Virus record (IMG/VR): IMGVR_UViG_3300045253_000042
Coordinates: 1-58,032 of that record
From: a virus
Strand: one strand, 5' to 3'
Length of the DNA: 58,032 nt
In this document: positions 27,206-34,458 of the stretch, in pieces
Layout of the letters: each line of letters starts with the position of its first letter
Numbering within the stretch: position 1 is the stretch's first letter
The notes under the pieces: generated by a model
The model's database searches: none
What the model saw: the letters and a program-made list of their open reading frames with translations, nothing else
What the model was told of the DNA's origin: nothing
Made by a program: the position numbers and the translations under genes

Positions 27206-29143
27206 TCAGTTGCGGTGCGGCGGGCGGGTGGCGTGCAGCTGGCGCAGCGCCTCAGCGGCTGCGGTCTCCAGCTCCAGGGCCCTAGCCGCCCTCGTGGTGG
27301 CGTCAGGAGCGGACGTCCACTCCTCCTTCGCCACCGTCTCGTGCCGTAGCGCACCGACGTTCTGACCGCGCAGCACGTGGGGCTCCGGCATGGGCCGGTC
27401 CTCGTCGCCCCGCACGCGCTCTGCGCCTCTGGTCAGGACCTTGGACGGTGCTGGTGCCTCCAGGTCGGCGATCCGGTCCTCCAGCGCCTTCACGACCTCG
27501 GCGTGCTCGTCGTCTCGCGCCTTCAGGACAGCGGTCACCTGCTCCTCGATCATCTCCTTCAGCACCTCCTGAGCCGTCTTGGCGACCGGCTCCTCGGCGG
27601 AGGTGGAAGCTGTGGTGGCGGGCGGCGGCGCGGGCTCGGTGGCCGCGGTCGCGTCCGTGGGGGTGCCGACATCCTCCGGCTCGGCCGGGGTGTCGTCAGG
27701 GGCGTCGGCCGGGGCGTCCGCGTCGGCACCGGTGGTGCCCATCAGGACCCGCAGGCCGAGCTCGACCAGGGCCGCCTTCTGCTCCGAGCCGGACCCGGTC
27801 AGGGCCTGGCGCTTCAGGTCCGCATCGGACACCTTCGCCAGCGGGTCGTCCGCCCTGGCGACCTCGTCGGGCTCGGGCTCGGGCTCGTCGGCCTTCGCGA
27901 CGGCCGCTGCGACGGCCTCCGCGATCACCGCGGCCTCCTTGGACACGCCCACCGACGCGGACGAGCTGTGCCCGTCGTCGGCGGTGTCGGCCACGGGCTC
28001 GGTGGTGTCCGCGGTGGTCGGCTCGTCGCCTTCCTTCGCCACGTCGTCGACGGCCGGGGCGGCGGGCAGCGACGACAGGACCTGGGAGAGGGAGTCGACG
28101 GCGTCGCGGATCTTGCCCTCGTTCGCGGCGGACAGGACCCGGCCGGCCTTGGCGATCGGCACCAGCTGCTCCAGGACGTCCAGGGCGCCCGGGTCGATGC
28201 CCTCGGCGGCCTTGCCGACGGCCTGGATCTCCTCGGTGCCGGTCTGCGCCTCCAGCTCCTCATCGACGGCGTAGGCGGCCAGGACGCCGATGGCGTAGTC
28301 GAGGGCGCAGGCCGCATCGTTCAGGTCGAAGGAGTTGTCGATGCTGTCGGCGTCGCCGCCGGTGTCGGCCTCGACCATCTCCCGCTGCGCGAGGACCTCC
28401 AGCGCGTTCTTGGTTCGGCCCAGGACCCCGGTCCACTTGCGGGCCGTGGCGGCGTCGACGGACTCCCAGGCGGGTGAGCCGGGCACGTTCTCGTCCCCGA
28501 CGATCCCGTCGGCGGTGCCCTCCGCGAGCGGGGTGGCCAGGTCGACCTCGCCCGGGTCCTCGCTGACCTCGTCGTCGGCCTTCGCCACGTTGGTCGCGCC
28601 GGCGTCAGCCGAGCCGGTGTTGTCGGCGGCCTGCGCGGTGGGCTGGTCTGCGTCGTGGTCAGACAGGGAGCCGACCTGCTCGCTGGCGCCGCCCTCGCTC
28701 GCCTCCGCGCCGTCCGAGGTCGACTCGGCGACTGCGTCCTTGGCGACCTGCTCCACCGTGTCGGTGTCGGGCATATCGGTCTCCTCCTGGGCCTTGGCGA
28801 CGTCGATGCCGAACTTCTTGGCAGCCGCCTTGATCTTGGGCATGGCCTTGTCACCGAACGGGGACTGCGGTGCGCGCGACAGCGCGTTGCGGGTGTGCGC
28901 CTCGTCGTAGATCGCGAAGTGCCGCAGCGACAGCGGCGTGGTCTTGCCGTTGGCCTTCTTGCCGCCCGGCTCGACGTACGCGAAGTCGGAGTCGGGGCGC
29001 TCATCCATCGACGCCGTCGAGGCTTCGGCCTTGGCGATCAGGACCCGGTGCCCGTTCGCGGACTTGCCGACCAGGTCGACGCGCGGCAGGTCGGCGTCGA
29101 CGAGCTCGGTGAAGTCGTCGACCGGGATCGTCGTGTCGCTCAT
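27206..29143 (-). CDS. Scaffold-like capsid assembly protein, 645 aa
   Basis: Residues 1-105 contain VDLVGKSANGHRVLIAKAE and the block HFAIYDEAHTRNALSRAPQS followed by PFGDKAMPKIKAAAKKFGID, a small domain common in actinophage capsid operons. Residues 120-520 are very acidic and low-complexity, with alanine/aspartate/glutamate runs. Residues 530-580 form a coiled coil (EVLKEMIEEQVTAVLK, then HAEVVKALEDRIADLE). The position between protease and capsid gene, high acidity and terminal helix fit a scaffold cleaved on maturation. It is much longer than usual scaffolds (200-350 residues). ATGA overlap with the protease gene. Confidence 0.68.
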   Translation of the reverse strand: MSDTTIPVDDFTELVDADLPRVDLVGKSANGHRVLIAKAEASTASMDERPDSDFAYVEPGGKKANGKTTPLSLRHFAIYDEAHTRNALSRAPQSPFGDKAMPKIKAAAKKFGIDVAKAQEETDMPDTDTVEQVAKDAVAESTSDGAEASEGGASEQVGSLSDHDADQPTAQAADNTGSADAGATNVAKADDEVSEDPGEVDLATPLAEGTADGIVGDENVPGSPAWESVDAATARKWTGVLGRTKNALEVLAQREMVEADTGGDADSIDNSFDLNDAACALDYAIGVLAAYAVDEELEAQTGTEEIQAVGKAAEGIDPGALDVLEQLVPIAKAGRVLSAANEGKIRDAVDSLSQVLSSLPAAPAVDDVAKEGDEPTTADTTEPVADTADDGHSSSASVGVSKEAAVIAEAVAAAVAKADEPEPEPDEVARADDPLAKVSDADLKRQALTGSGSEQKAALVELGLRVLMGTTGADADAPADAPDDTPAEPEDVGTPTDATAATEPAPPPATTASTSAEEPVAKTAQEVLKEMIEEQVTAVLKARDDEHAEVVKALEDRIADLEAPAPSKVLTRGAERVRGDEDRPMPEPHVLRGQNVGALRHETVAKEEWTSAPDATTRAARALELETAAAEALRQLHATRPPHRN

Positions 29144-29664
29144 GTGGTGCTCCTGACCGTGCGCCGCTTGGCCGCGCCCTGCGTGGAGACGCCGGTGACG
29201 CGACCGGTCTTGTACAGGCCCCAGGCGTAGTCATCGCACTGCAGGCCGACCAGCCACGTCCCGGACTTGATGACCACGTCCTCGCCGCCGGTGTTCGTCA
29301 GCGCCCAGTCCGGGCCCCGGTACACGTACGACTCGACGACGACCGCGTGCTCGTCCTCGAGCCCGGGGTTGAAGTAGGAGGCGTGCGCGACCCCGGCGAC
29401 GCCACCGCGGTGCTTGGCGATCAGCCGCCACGCGGCCTGCTCGACCTCGGCCTCGTTCATGAAGTCGCGGGCCCCGTCGACGCCCTTCGCGATCCGGTCC
29501 TGCTTGCCGGGCTCCCACGCGACGCACAGCAGGTAGCGCTGCTCGGCGGTCTCCTTCACGACCTCGACGGGCAGCGGCTCCGGCTCGAGCGCGGACTTGG
29601 CGACCGGCTCGTCGCCGACGAGCTCGTAGTGCCCGGTGGCCGGGTCACGGCGCAGATGGGTCAC
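29140..29664 (-). CDS. XkdF-like prohead maturation protease
   Basis: The 174-residue protein matches the XkdF-like putative phage serine protease family: YLLCVAWEPGKQDRIAKGVD, ARDFMNEAEVEQAAWRLIAK, HASYFNPGLEDEHAVVVESY, then GTWLVGLQCDDYAWGLYKTG and VTGVSTQGAAKRR. It lies between the portal fusion and scaffold genes as expected for a capsid maturation protease. It would trim scaffold or capsid N-terminus within the prohead. Catalytic His and Ser candidates are His95 and Ser163 (my estimate from family pattern). Confidence 0.78.
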   Translation of the reverse strand: MTHLRRDPATGHYELVGDEPVAKSALEPEPLPVEVVKETAEQRYLLCVAWEPGKQDRIAKGVDGARDFMNEAEVEQAAWRLIAKHRGGVAGVAHASYFNPGLEDEHAVVVESYVYRGPDWALTNTGGEDVVIKSGTWLVGLQCDDYAWGLYKTGRVTGVSTQGAAKRRTVRSTT

Positions 29665-29666
29665 GA

Positions 29667-32600
29667 TCAGTCCCCTTCACCGAACTCGACGGGCAGGTCC
29701 GACACGCTCGCGCCCGCGGCGTCGATCAGCACCGGGGAGGACGCGCAACGGCAGTACGGGTGGACGGGCACCAGCGACCCTTCGGAGACGGGCCACGGGT
29801 TGTTCTCCTCCAGAGACGTGCACTCCTGGCAGGCACCGTCAGCGGTCAGGACGTCGAAGGCCTCGATGCCGTTGGAGGCGTAGGTGTCCAGGGTGGCCGC
29901 GTCGACGGCGCGGGCCGTCTCGGTCTGCGCAATCATCTCGGCGCGGCTCAGGTCCCCGACGATGCCGTCCAGGTAGCCAGCGATGGTGTCGACGCTGTCC
30001 CCGGCGGCCAGGCCGTCCGCGACGGCGTTCCCGATCCGCTCCAGCGTGGTGGCGTCGATCCCGTCGATGCTGATCCCGGCACCGTCGAGCAGGTCCGCGA
30101 GGCCACCGTCAGCCGCGGCGAGCGAGGCTGACGGGTCGCCGGGCTCCCACGTCGACCAGTCGATCCCGGCCGCGACGTCACCCACGGCGGAGGCCACGTA
30201 CCCGCCGGACTGGCGGGCTGCGGTGCCCAGGCCGGCGGTGTAGGCGTCGGCGATGAGCTGGCGCATGACCCGCTCGAGCTCGGCCGTCGATGCCGCGCCG
30301 GCAGCCGACTGGGCGGCTGCGGTGATCTGGGCGCGGGCCGCCGCGGCCGCGTCATCCTTCGCCACGGACCCGGCGGCCCGGGCCGGGGCTCCCTCCGCCT
30401 TGGCGGCTGCCCCGGCTGCTGCCGCGCTGTGCAGCTGGGAGGGGCTAAACGTGGCCCGTAGAGCGGCCTGCAGGAGTGGGGCGTAGTGATCGGTCAGGCG
30501 CAGGTCGTAGGCGTGCTGTGGGGCGTTGTCCGCGTCACGCCATGACGCTTTTGGGTCGGCCTTCACCACCTGCGCCGTCCCGGTCAGCGCCGCCAGGACG
30601 ACGGGCAGGTCCTGGGCCAGCTCGGAGCGCACCGCCGGGTTGCCCTCCAGGCTGGCCGGGTCCCACCAGGCGGCGACCTCGGCGCAGTCCCCGTCCGGGT
30701 CGTCCGGGTTCAGCACCCGGCCGGTCTGGTTGTTGACCGGCAGCACCGACTCGTCGGGGACGACGATGACGAAGCCCTGGTAGACCCCGTTCGCCGAGGT
30801 CCACGTCTGGCCGTTCTCGAAGGCGTGCGGCGTGGCCAGGTCCAGATAGGGGGCCAGGGAGCAGCCGGTCTCCTCCTGCCACTCCCGCCATGCGGCAGCG
30901 AGCGGGGTCTCGCCGTCCTCGATGCACCCGCCGGGGAACTCCCACGTCCCCGACGCCGGATCGGCCGGGTCGAGGGCGCGCTGCAACATGAGCACCCTCC
31001 CGGTGTCCGCCGCGACGACCGCCAGTCCGGCCGCGACCATCTGGCCGGCCGCTTTGCGCACCTCGGCCCGGCCTGCCTGGTTGAGCCGGTGCGCGAGACG
31101 CGGCTCGAACGCGGCGAACGTGAAGTCGCGCCAGTCACGGGACTTGCGGCGCTGCTTGACGAAGCGGCGGAACGTGGCCAGCTCGCCCTTGACGACCTCG
31201 AGCAGCTCGTCGTCCTCGTCGTCGTCGGCCAGCATGGGGGAGCCGTAGGCGCCGGTCTGCTCAGTGATCCCGACCGTGGCCTCCTTCGCCACCGGCGGCG
31301 GTGGCGGTGGCGCTGCGGGCGGCAGCTCGGGGACTGGCGGCCCGTATCGCTGCACGGCGAGCGGCTCGGTCGGCGGCGGCGGGTTCGGCATGACACCCTC
31401 GACCGGGGTGAACGGGGCGTGCGGCAGCGGTGCGTCAGCGACGGGGGCGGCGGACTCAGCGTCGATGGGGCCGGCGACGGCCTTGAGCGCGGACAGCGGG
31501 ATGGGGCCGCCGCGGGTGGTGAAGATGAACCGCGGCACCGGGATGCCGTCCGGCTCGGACAGGCCGTACACCCGCTGACGGGCCTCGGACGCGGAGATGA
31601 CCCCCGCCTTGATGTACAGGTCGTCGGCCTGCGCGGTGTTGAGCCGGTCCTCCTTCTCCTGCCCGGTGTCGAACGCGAACTCCAGGTCCAGGCCCAGGTC
31701 GTCCTGCAGGAACCGGGTGAAGATGCCCTCGGCGTGCTGGATCAGCGGCAGGTCCCCGATGCGGAACTGCACGTCGGACTGGGTCTCGGAGGTGGCCCGG
31801 TTGACGGTCTCGGTGAACCCCAGGTCCGAGGGCACCACGTGGTAGCTGGCCGCGGTCTTGCGCATGAGGAACAGGGAGAAGGCGTCGGTGAACTCCTTCT
31901 CGTTCGTCCACGCGAACGTGGTGCCGTTCGGCACCCACTTGACCTGGTGCTTGGCCGTGTCGTCGCCGTACAGCAGCGCGTCCCACGCGGTCTGGAAGTC
32001 CTCGATCTGGGTCGGGTCCCAGCCGTCGGGCGCGGACGCGAACGCCTCCGGCACGTTGCCGGTGGTGAAGCGCTGCAGGAAGTACGACTGGAACCGCAGG
32101 TCGGTGTTGGCGTTCAGCAGCACCGACTCGATGGGCGCCTTCCCGTACGGGGTGCCCGACGTGGGCTGGTACGGGACGTAGATCAGGTCGTCGGTGGTCA
32201 ACCAGTCCCACGGGATGCCCTGCGCGAACTGCACGAACGCCGGCGCGGGCGGCTCCGGGGTGCCCCCGTAGTAGTCCAGCAGCGGCGCGATCGTCGTCCC
32301 GTCGACGACCTTCAGGCCGATGGCCTGGCCGGCGTTGTTGCGCATCCGGTACAAGGTCCCGGCGTCGAACGCGAGGATGTCGTACAGGTAGGAGGCGAGC
32401 CACGCCGGGAACGGGGTGAGCCGGTCGGGCCGGTCCAGGATCCGCTTCCCGTACGCGATCTGCGCCTCCACGTCGAGCCCGGACGCGCCGGGCTTGGCGA
32501 CCAGCGACCAGGCCAGGGACCGCACCGAGTTGATGCGGTGCCAGATGCAGATCTGCGCGATGTCGTACGCCTCGATCAGGCCGCGCAGGGTGTCGAAGCT

Positions 32601-32807
32601 GACGCGCTCGTCGCGGCGGGGCCGGGCCGCGATGTTGTAGCCGGACATGTAGTCCTGCTCGCGCGGCGGCACCGAGTAGCCGGCGTAGGGCGCGAGCGGC
32701 GCACCGGGGCCGAACGTCCGGCCGACCATGCCCTGGCGGGCGGCGGCCTGCTCCATCGGCACCGGCCGGCCCCACTGGTCCACGACGAGCAGGGAGGTCT
32801 CGCTCAT
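29667..32807 (-). CDS. Portal-Nudix-MuF fusion protein
   Basis: The 1046-residue protein holds three modules. Residues 40-440 are the portal (FDTLRGLIEAYDIAQICIWH, RINSVRSLAWSLV, VVPSDLGFTETVNRATSETQ). Residues 440-505 are a proline-rich linker. Residues about 590-745 are a Nudix hydrolase with a complete box at 627-649 (GCIEDGETPLAAAWREWQEE) and the conserved WEFPGG before it. Residues 820-1030 are the MuF minor head domain (RAEMIAQTETARAVDAATLD and PVHPYCRCASSPV). Portal-MuF fusions are known in actinophages; a catalytic-looking Nudix domain between the two is unusual. No stop or frameshift breaks the fusion. One copy sits at each of the 12 portal positions if not cleaved. Confidence 0.9.
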   Translation of the reverse strand: MSETSLLVVDQWGRPVPMEQAAARQGMVGRTFGPGAPLAPYAGYSVPPREQDYMSGYNIAARPRRDERVSFDTLRGLIEAYDIAQICIWHRINSVRSLAWSLVAKPGASGLDVEAQIAYGKRILDRPDRLTPFPAWLASYLYDILAFDAGTLYRMRNNAGQAIGLKVVDGTTIAPLLDYYGGTPEPPAPAFVQFAQGIPWDWLTTDDLIYVPYQPTSGTPYGKAPIESVLLNANTDLRFQSYFLQRFTTGNVPEAFASAPDGWDPTQIEDFQTAWDALLYGDDTAKHQVKWVPNGTTFAWTNEKEFTDAFSLFLMRKTAASYHVVPSDLGFTETVNRATSETQSDVQFRIGDLPLIQHAEGIFTRFLQDDLGLDLEFAFDTGQEKEDRLNTAQADDLYIKAGVISASEARQRVYGLSEPDGIPVPRFIFTTRGGPIPLSALKAVAGPIDAESAAPVADAPLPHAPFTPVEGVMPNPPPPTEPLAVQRYGPPVPELPPAAPPPPPPVAKEATVGITEQTGAYGSPMLADDDEDDELLEVVKGELATFRRFVKQRRKSRDWRDFTFAAFEPRLAHRLNQAGRAEVRKAAGQMVAAGLAVVAADTGRVLMLQRALDPADPASGTWEFPGGCIEDGETPLAAAWREWQEETGCSLAPYLDLATPHAFENGQTWTSANGVYQGFVIVVPDESVLPVNNQTGRVLNPDDPDGDCAEVAAWWDPASLEGNPAVRSELAQDLPVVLAALTGTAQVVKADPKASWRDADNAPQHAYDLRLTDHYAPLLQAALRATFSPSQLHSAAAAGAAAKAEGAPARAAGSVAKDDAAAAARAQITAAAQSAAGAASTAELERVMRQLIADAYTAGLGTAARQSGGYVASAVGDVAAGIDWSTWEPGDPSASLAAADGGLADLLDGAGISIDGIDATTLERIGNAVADGLAAGDSVDTIAGYLDGIVGDLSRAEMIAQTETARAVDAATLDTYASNGIEAFDVLTADGACQECTSLEENNPWPVSEGSLVPVHPYCRCASSPVLIDAAGASVSDLPVEFGEGD

Positions 32808-32823: not shown

Positions 32824-34458
32824 TCATCGTTGTGGTTGCTTGCGGTGGGCCCGGAACGCGGCCTGCCGGGCGGCCTCCAGCGGAGCCAGCTCGACGACCT
32901 CAGCGGCGGCGGCCTGCTCCTCGGCGGCCTTCTCGGCTGCGATCGTCTCGGCGCGGCGCTTCATGAACTCGATCCACTGCGCAGCCCCGGCGCCGCCAAG
33001 CAGCAGCCGGTCCAGGCCCTGGGACAGCGCGTCGACCTGGTCGTCGTTGCTGCCGTTCGGGAACGCTGCGGCCTCGTCGATGATCTCGGCCCCCCACCCC
33101 GGGTCGATGTCGGCGTGCGGCAGCAAGACGTTCCCGGCCTCGATGAAGTGGGACACGGCGCTGGCCCGGGCGTACTTGGAGCCGTGCGGCTCGACCGGCA
33201 CGATGCCGGGGATCTTGGTGCGCAGCGTGTCGATGACGGCGCTGCCGTTGGCCTTGTCCTCGACGAGCTTCGCGGCGGCGCCGGGCCACTTGGCGACCTG
33301 GTGCTGGAACGCCTTGATGGTCTCGGTGAACGTCATCCGGCGGCGCACCTGGTCGAGCACGTAGACGTCCGCCCCGATGCGGGCCAGGACCTGCCCGACG
33401 ACGAAGTCGGAGCCGCGCTTGTCCTTGAACGTCATGTCCCACGACAGGACCATGTCGTCGCACACCATCCGGTGGGTGCCGTCCGCGTCGACGGTCCACG
33501 GGATCGCGGCGTAGCGGCGCCACCACTGCCGCTTCCACACGTCGCCGGACTCCGGTGCGGGCCGTCCCTGGAACAGGGCCTGCCACTGGCGCGGCGGGGT
33601 GGCGACCTTTGTGGCCCGCCACTGGGACCCGGTGCGCTGACGGGCGGAGTCCATGAACTCCCCGGGCTGACGGCCCAGCGGGTCGACCTGGCCCTTCGCC
33701 GGGTCGTGGTCGGCCTGCGCGGGGATGTTGATGACCGTCCACCGGTCGAAATCGAGCTCGCCCGCGGCCTCGTCCTGCGCCTGCTTGGCGAGCAGCCGAC
33801 CGGCCAGGTCGAGCTCAGACCAGCGGGTCAGGATCAGCACCACGGGCGCACCCGGGCCCAGACGCGGCCGACCGACCGACGTCCACCACGCCCACGCGGC
33901 CTCGGACTGGTTCTCCGAATCGGCGGCCTTGTAGTCCTTGACCGGGTCGTCGATGAACAGCACGTCGACGGGCCGCCCGGTCAGGGCGCCCCCGATGCCG
34001 ATGGCGTAGCAGCCGCCACGGTGCGGCGGGTCCAATACCCAGCGGGACGCGGCCTTGGAGTCGCGGCGCAGCCGCAGACCCAGGTCGACGTTCCCGTCGG
34101 TGCCGTCGAACGTCAGAATGTCGTTGCGGATCTTGGAGGAGAACCCCGACGCGATGTTGCCGTCGAAGGAGACGATGCCGATGCGCAGGTTCGGGTCCCG
34201 CGCCAGCATCCACAGCGCCCCGTAGTGCGTGGTCCGCTCGGACTTCCCCTCCTGCGGCGGCATCGAGATGATCAGCCGGTCGGTGCGGCCCTCCGCCACG
34301 TCGACCAGGGCCGCGTCGACGATGTCGAGGGCGCCGGTCTGGCGGGTCGTCGGATCCAGGTCCCTCGCCAGCGCCCCGGGTGTCGACCAGTCGGGGCGGT
34401 CCAGGACCGGGTTGGAGAACGCCCGGGCGACCAGGTCCAGCACCGTGTCGACGGACAT
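32824..34458 (-). CDS. terL: Terminase large subunit
   Basis: The 544-residue protein has the full ATPase and nuclease set. Walker A is residues 66-73 (MPPQEGKS), Walker B 167-171 (LFIDD), coupling motif about 209-214 (ILTRWSE). Nuclease acids are Asp341 (LSWDMTFKDK), the VEDK pair at 400-401 and Asp472/473 with Asp476 (SNDDQVDALS). It pumps DNA into the prohead through the portal encoded next. The C-terminus is alanine/glutamate rich. Its small subunit partner is not adjacent but about 13.6 kb upstream in the transcript direction (48050-48763). Confidence 0.95.
   Translation of the reverse strand: MSVDTVLDLVARAFSNPVLDRPDWSTPGALARDLDPTTRQTGALDIVDAALVDVAEGRTDRLIISMPPQEGKSERTTHYGALWMLARDPNLRIGIVSFDGNIASGFSSKIRNDILTFDGTDGNVDLGLRLRRDSKAASRWVLDPPHRGGCYAIGIGGALTGRPVDVLFIDDPVKDYKAADSENQSEAAWAWWTSVGRPRLGPGAPVVLILTRWSELDLAGRLLAKQAQDEAAGELDFDRWTVINIPAQADHDPAKGQVDPLGRQPGEFMDSARQRTGSQWRATKVATPPRQWQALFQGRPAPESGDVWKRQWWRRYAAIPWTVDADGTHRMVCDDMVLSWDMTFKDKRGSDFVVGQVLARIGADVYVLDQVRRRMTFTETIKAFQHQVAKWPGAAAKLVEDKANGSAVIDTLRTKIPGIVPVEPHGSKYARASAVSHFIEAGNVLLPHADIDPGWGAEIIDEAAAFPNGSNDDQVDALSQGLDRLLLGGAGAAQWIEFMKRRAETIAAEKAAEEQAAAAEVVELAPLEAARQAAFRAHRKQPQR

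Follow-up and report, generated by a model that had tools for sequence, protein, structure and literature searches.

In SPP1, the portal targets the MuF protein gp7 to the interior of the procapsid (PMC6316719). MuF-toxin and VIP2-MuF fusions place an enzyme on this complex of MuF and portal, presumably for transport within the head (PMC7302621, PMC6316719). A 2022 survey describes Nudix domains fused to MuF, portal or head serine peptidase, which may be packaged and injected (PMC9503650, section 3.5.2); packaging and injection have also been proposed for other enzymes (PMC5512222). In that part of the survey the head-fused Nudix domains are placed with T4 NudE. Separately, the same survey reports 2H domains fused to MuF or portal, and its text on head-fused Nudix domains makes no mention of an exchange of the two at a common slot (PMC9503650). 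The 2H fold is also that of the anti-CBASS nuclease Acb1 (PMC9117128).

We have analyzed an IMG/VR record of a soil phage, of 58,032 bases and ~71% GC and referred to here as the window, in which one polypeptide carries a portal, a Nudix and a MuF domain. The fusion to portal and MuF resembles that of the Nudix domains in the relevant section of the survey (PMC9503650). It may differ in its affinity: the profile of the window's Nudix subfamily scores T4 NudE at just 22 bits, whereas cellular MutT-type proteins reach ~46-52 bits at best. As in the MuF-toxin and VIP2-MuF fusions (PMC7302621, PMC6316719), the proposed arrangement is of an enzyme carried in the head on MuF and portal; however, the cargo of those systems is an ADP-ribosyltransferase or other toxin, whereas that of the window is a predicted hydrolase lying between portal and MuF. 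Fused head enzymes are therefore already known, and what is new is the comparative picture, in which Nudix and 2H domains are exchanged at one site. In the text, figures apart, of the open-access literature this exchange appears to be undescribed.

The Portal, Nudix and MuF Domains Lie in a Single Open Frame

The head genes of the window, which also contains a tape-measure gene, are on the minus strand in the usual order of terminase, portal polypeptide, XkdF-like protease, acidic protein and probable capsid; all window coordinates below refer to that strand. The gene for the terminase large subunit (32824-34458; phrog_38, 1.7e-87; PF17289) is directly upstream of the portal gene (29667-32807), and that for the XkdF-like head-maturation protease (29140-29664; PF14550, 3e-12) is directly downstream. 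The product of 25666-27165 matches phrog_13692 (1.7e-42), whose function is unnamed in PHROGs. It is probably the major capsid protein, because its position equals that of the annotated major capsid gene in the Arthrobacter phages Mufasa8 and Sonali, in which the order of terminase, portal, protease and capsid genes is similar to that of the window.

The portal gene is an open reading frame of 1046 amino acids with zero internal stops. An earlier note, made from the sequence alone, read it as three domains in a single frame, and this is borne out for the window by matches in both Pfam and PHROGs; it does not extend to some of the relatives, which encode MuF in a gene of its own or have a break in the Nudix coding sequence. 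The portal domain (residues 48-440; 31488-32666) matches PF04860 over residues 87-412 (2.7e-15) and phrog_2662 over residues 47-421 (1.1e-58). The MuF minor-head domain (residues 905-1030; 29718-30095) contains the motif C-x2-C ... HP-x-CRC and matches phrog_4728, MuF-type head morphogenesis (6.7e-14); its match to PF04233 (residues 924-1022; 6.5e-6) is slightly below the cut-off, at 27.3 against 29.6 bits.

The model of residues 431-1046 begins with a proline-rich linker (residues 431-529; 31221-31517) that is predicted to be flexible, with pLDDT mostly 33-71. A helical hairpin follows (residues 530-586; 31050-31220), evident as conservation in the alignment and as two confident helices in the model; the hairpin, with the motif WRDF-F...LN-GR--VRK, is common to Nudix-bearing and 2H-bearing relatives. 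Next comes the Nudix globule (residues 591-741; 30585-31037; PF00293 and AlphaFold2 model), the occupant of what we shall call the slot, and then a short linker of low confidence and the mostly helical MuF domain.

The Nudix Domain Is Predicted to Be a Complete Enzyme Module

Residues 590-745 are recognized as Nudix by profile search, as the earlier note had proposed, with a match to PF00293 at residues 591-720 (1.1e-15; 58 bits, the cut-off being 21) and one in PHROGs at 5.5e-17. The Nudix box GX5EX7REUXEEXGU is complete (residues 627-649; 30861-30929), reading G627-x5-E633-x7-R641-E642-W-x-E645-E646-x-G648-C649, so that the catalytic motif is intact at the residues originally named. Each of the six residues checked (G627, E633, R641, E642, E645 and E646) shows 100% conservation across an alignment of 91 distinct homologous domains. 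A chance motif or a mis-joined frame was considered and rejected in view of the open frame, the profile matches and the invariant box residues.

An AlphaFold2 model of the domain, built from 51 sequences, has a mean pLDDT of 81.8 and superposes on solved Nudix enzymes over the full length of the domain. Comparison with 6uuf (RenU) gives Z = 14.8 and an rmsd of 2.6 over 134 residues; the values for 3r03 and NadM are Z = 13.5 and 13.1, respectively, and MutT2, RppH and Dcp2 are also among the nearest neighbors. On the basis of the model, the domain in the slot is a Nudix fold. The intact box suggests that it is an active enzyme.

Nudix enzymes cut NDP-X bonds. The structural neighbors of the domain cover many different substrates, and of the substrate-specificity motifs sought in its sequence none points to a substrate. 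In the 91 domains the X-loop after the box is of variable length and lacks a conserved proline; Tyr 676 is invariant, at a variable spacing from the box. The ADP-ribose diphosphatase group has a proline in this loop ~17 residues after the box (PMC5389931). When cellular genomes were scanned with the subfamily, the best among the matches listed were ordinary MutT-type proteins.

Relatives of the Nudix Domain Are Found Only in Head Polypeptides

The portal-Nudix-MuF architecture is shared by two Arthrobacter phages in culture, Mufasa8 and Sonali, and by dozens of viral contigs from soil; searching with the whole protein matched 39 viral contigs. The Nudix profile on its own matched 358 relatives, and the best 80 of these were examined. 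The Nudix domain shares an open reading frame with portal and/or MuF at 73 of the 75 new loci, the exceptions being L049, where the contig is truncated at the 5' end, and L111, where the frame overlaps a MuF frame. Using a hand-made majority sequence of the alignment as query, we found the subfamily in four distinct cultured phages among 50,697 records, each time in a head protein. Mufasa8 and Sonali have portal-Nudix-MuF, Pam4 has MuF-Nudix, and Gilgamesh has the domain on an S78 prohead protease adjoining the capsid gene. Thus among the relatives found, that is, the best 80 of 358 and the cultured phages, the subfamily appears from sequence to be confined to head polypeptides.

A Nudix domain in a portal polypeptide had been described as unusual. 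This is so among cultured phages, with their four distinct examples, but not among soil viral contigs, where it is widespread, and in the literature fusions to portal, MuF and protease have already been published (PMC9503650, in the part concerned with head proteins). The possibility that the insertion is peculiar to the window was rejected, since the fusion is widespread in viral contigs.

Five arrangements are seen: portal-Nudix-MuF; portal-Nudix with a separate MuF gene; portal-MuF-Nudix (L114, L116 and L118); MuF-Nudix (L089 and Pam4); and protease-Nudix (Gilgamesh). The domain has thus been relocated repeatedly among head proteins. The gp3 proteins of Mufasa8 and Sonali have the same order as the window, but are 44-46% identical to it in the portal and 53-57% in the Nudix domain, values that apply also to L037. 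In some other relatives the portals are 31-34% identical to that of the window, yet the Nudix domains are 60-67% identical. These Nudix domains are thus closer to that of the window than are those of Mufasa8, Sonali and L037, an indication that the domain has moved horizontally. The median dN/dS is ~0.13 for the Nudix domain (19 pairs) compared with 0.24 for the portal (15 pairs), and the Nudix domain is under purifying selection.

Nudix and 2H Domains Are Exchanged at One Site

The two portal clades were scanned apart, a joint alignment being too divergent to scan with. A scan with the portal alone added 67 window-like loci; Nudix lies in the portal frame at 51 of them and is missing from 9, and the other 7 are incomplete. 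Seven genes hold a 2H phosphoesterase in the slot, a minority of the 96 window-like portals. Five of these (L205, L206, L248, L257 and L258) match PF13563 above the cut-off, at 4e-8 to 2e-6, and two (L219 and L249) were recognized by the family profile. One gene (L235) has Nudix and 2H in tandem, and in three (L213, L236 and L238) the visible part of the slot contains neither. On the tree of the 96 portal sequences the 2H state requires at least six changes, each of them imposed by branches with good support.

The exchange is clearest between close pairs. The Nudix-bearing L234 and the 2H-bearing L248 are mostly 70-95% identical on both flanks, but 24-32% in the slot. The portals of L255 and of the 2H-bearing L258 are mostly 87-97% identical. 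Evidently Nudix and 2H have been swapped at one site between otherwise similar portal genes. The same pattern is seen in a second portal clade, where either domain, Nudix or 2H, may follow the portal or MuF. Among 80 loci from a scan for the 2H family, 38 have the domain fused to portal or MuF, in several cases alongside Nudix in one protein, and both histidine-threonine motifs are invariant in the family alignment. Such a swap ties both enzymes to one job, and provides a natural experiment on that job.

At L307 (9414-12017) an 868-amino acid protein fuses an ADP-ribosyltransferase (PF03496, 1.5e-25) to a 2H of the slot type, and adjoins a portal-MuF gene.

A Proposed Cargo Slot in the Head and Its Alternatives

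We propose that the portal-MuF polypeptide contains an exchangeable cargo slot, holding enzymes that degrade nucleotide signals in the procapsid, and for this explanation as a whole, which includes catalytic activity of the Nudix domain, we would give a probability of about 0.57. We infer the location of the Nudix domain inside the head, its activity, its substrate and its release or delivery. Since portal and MuF form the inside of the head vertex, a Nudix domain fused to them should be built into the procapsid and enclosed with the DNA in the head, probably one per portal subunit. There would then be 12 copies at a portal vertex, and an uncleaved virion protein would be of 110 kDa, both as the earlier note supposed. 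The enzyme would hydrolyze an NDP-X nucleotide, either at the vertex or in the newly infected cell; the most plausible target is an immune or stress signal from the ADP-ribose or cyclic-nucleotide network. Points against the proposal are that fusion to the portal precludes ejection of the module without cleavage, and that only 7 of the 96 window-like portals bear 2H. Cleavage of the polypeptide is possible because the gene for a head-maturation protease is directly downstream, and the domain might be released from the portal by this neighboring protease and then delivered.

That one site takes either a Nudix or a 2H domain, the latter with the fold of Acb1, suggests a common target class, namely nucleotide signals related to ADP-ribose or to cyclic nucleotides. 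The initial suggestion that NDP-X compounds, among them ADP-ribose and NAD, would be hydrolyzed within the head or the cell is plausible, and gains support from the exchange with 2H at the same site.

A more specific version is that the region between portal and MuF, or after MuF, is a dedicated delivery slot for Nudix, 2H or both, destroying nucleotide immune signals, so that the virion is preloaded against CBASS- or Thoeris-type defense and its cargo is swapped as host defenses change. This we put forward tentatively, as a somewhat doubtful extension. The anti-CBASS analogy comes from fold and motif: Acb1 (PMC9117128) has the 2H fold and H-x-T/H-x-T tetrad of the alternative occupant of the slot, but unlike that occupant it is fused to neither portal nor MuF, and 2H is the domain of relatives, that of the window itself being Nudix. 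Comparison of the slot 2H family with solved structures including Acb1 gave one weak match and none that was significant.

Alternatively, the Nudix domain could act late in the producing cell, in nucleotide sanitizing, turnover of NAD or ADP-ribose, or RNA decapping, with the fusion serving co-expression and its presence in the virion incidental. The occurrence of MutT2, RppH and Dcp2 among the nearest structural neighbors would fit this, as would the hindrance to ejection that a portal fusion imposes. Yet a subfamily found only fused to head proteins, and repeatedly re-fused to portal, MuF and protease, would be odd if location were irrelevant, and sanitizing of the pool hardly explains exchange with 2H. 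On balance we consider this unlikely. More improbable still is that the fused enzyme aids takeover rather than immune evasion by modifying host RNA or proteins on arrival, through removal of NAD caps, 5' ends or ADP-ribose adducts; fold similarity to Dcp2 and RppH and the L307 protein beside a portal-MuF gene speak for it, but among the loci inspected L307 alone links an ADP-ribosyltransferase to 2H. Equally improbable is a non-enzymatic spacer, structural or ligand-binding, in head assembly or DNA packaging, for although the domain is located in a structural protein and the Nudix clan has non-enzymatic members (PMC5389931), the six box residues examined do not vary across the 91 domains, and slots that are empty (L213, L236 and L238) or hold an unrelated fold argue that no structural role depends on Nudix.

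If the cargo-slot proposal is correct, an enzyme that is part of the portal vertex could be at work as soon as infection begins. Known phage inhibitors of nucleotide-signaling defenses are generally produced only once infection is under way. With Mufasa8 and Sonali in culture, the slot enzyme is open to experiment.

Insertions and Additional Domains in the Relatives

Intein-like inserts occur in the portal module of L036 and in or beside MuF of L024, L037, L089 and L108; in L089 and L108 there are Pfam intein-splicing matches below the cut-off. Four loci share a break in the Nudix coding sequence at a single conserved point, following DTGRVLMLQRA (L250, 7380-7770; L252, 6920-7467; L256, 5389-5936; L263, 7583-8369). 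The coding sequence restarts at an ATG 390-790 bases on, with the box intact and an antisense open reading frame between. A split Nudix gene and an unrecognized intron are the candidate explanations; an Rfam search of the interrupted relatives matched no intron family. The NPDDPDGD loop of the Nudix domain carries a 1264-base insert in L262 (2156-3420), encoding a 378-amino acid protein with LAGLIDADG-like motifs that is a candidate homing endonuclease, and a 369-base insert is present at the same loop in L024. Here too Rfam gave no match to a known intron.

A ParB-like domain adjoins Nudix in the same polypeptide in L107 and L118 (phrog_1033 matches), and a ParB-like VADGHHH/R motif was seen by eye beside Nudix in L050, L060 and L115. 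In another portal clade a second, divergent type of Nudix domain directly follows MuF (L303, L310, L320 and L333; PF00293, 2e-10 to 2e-13).
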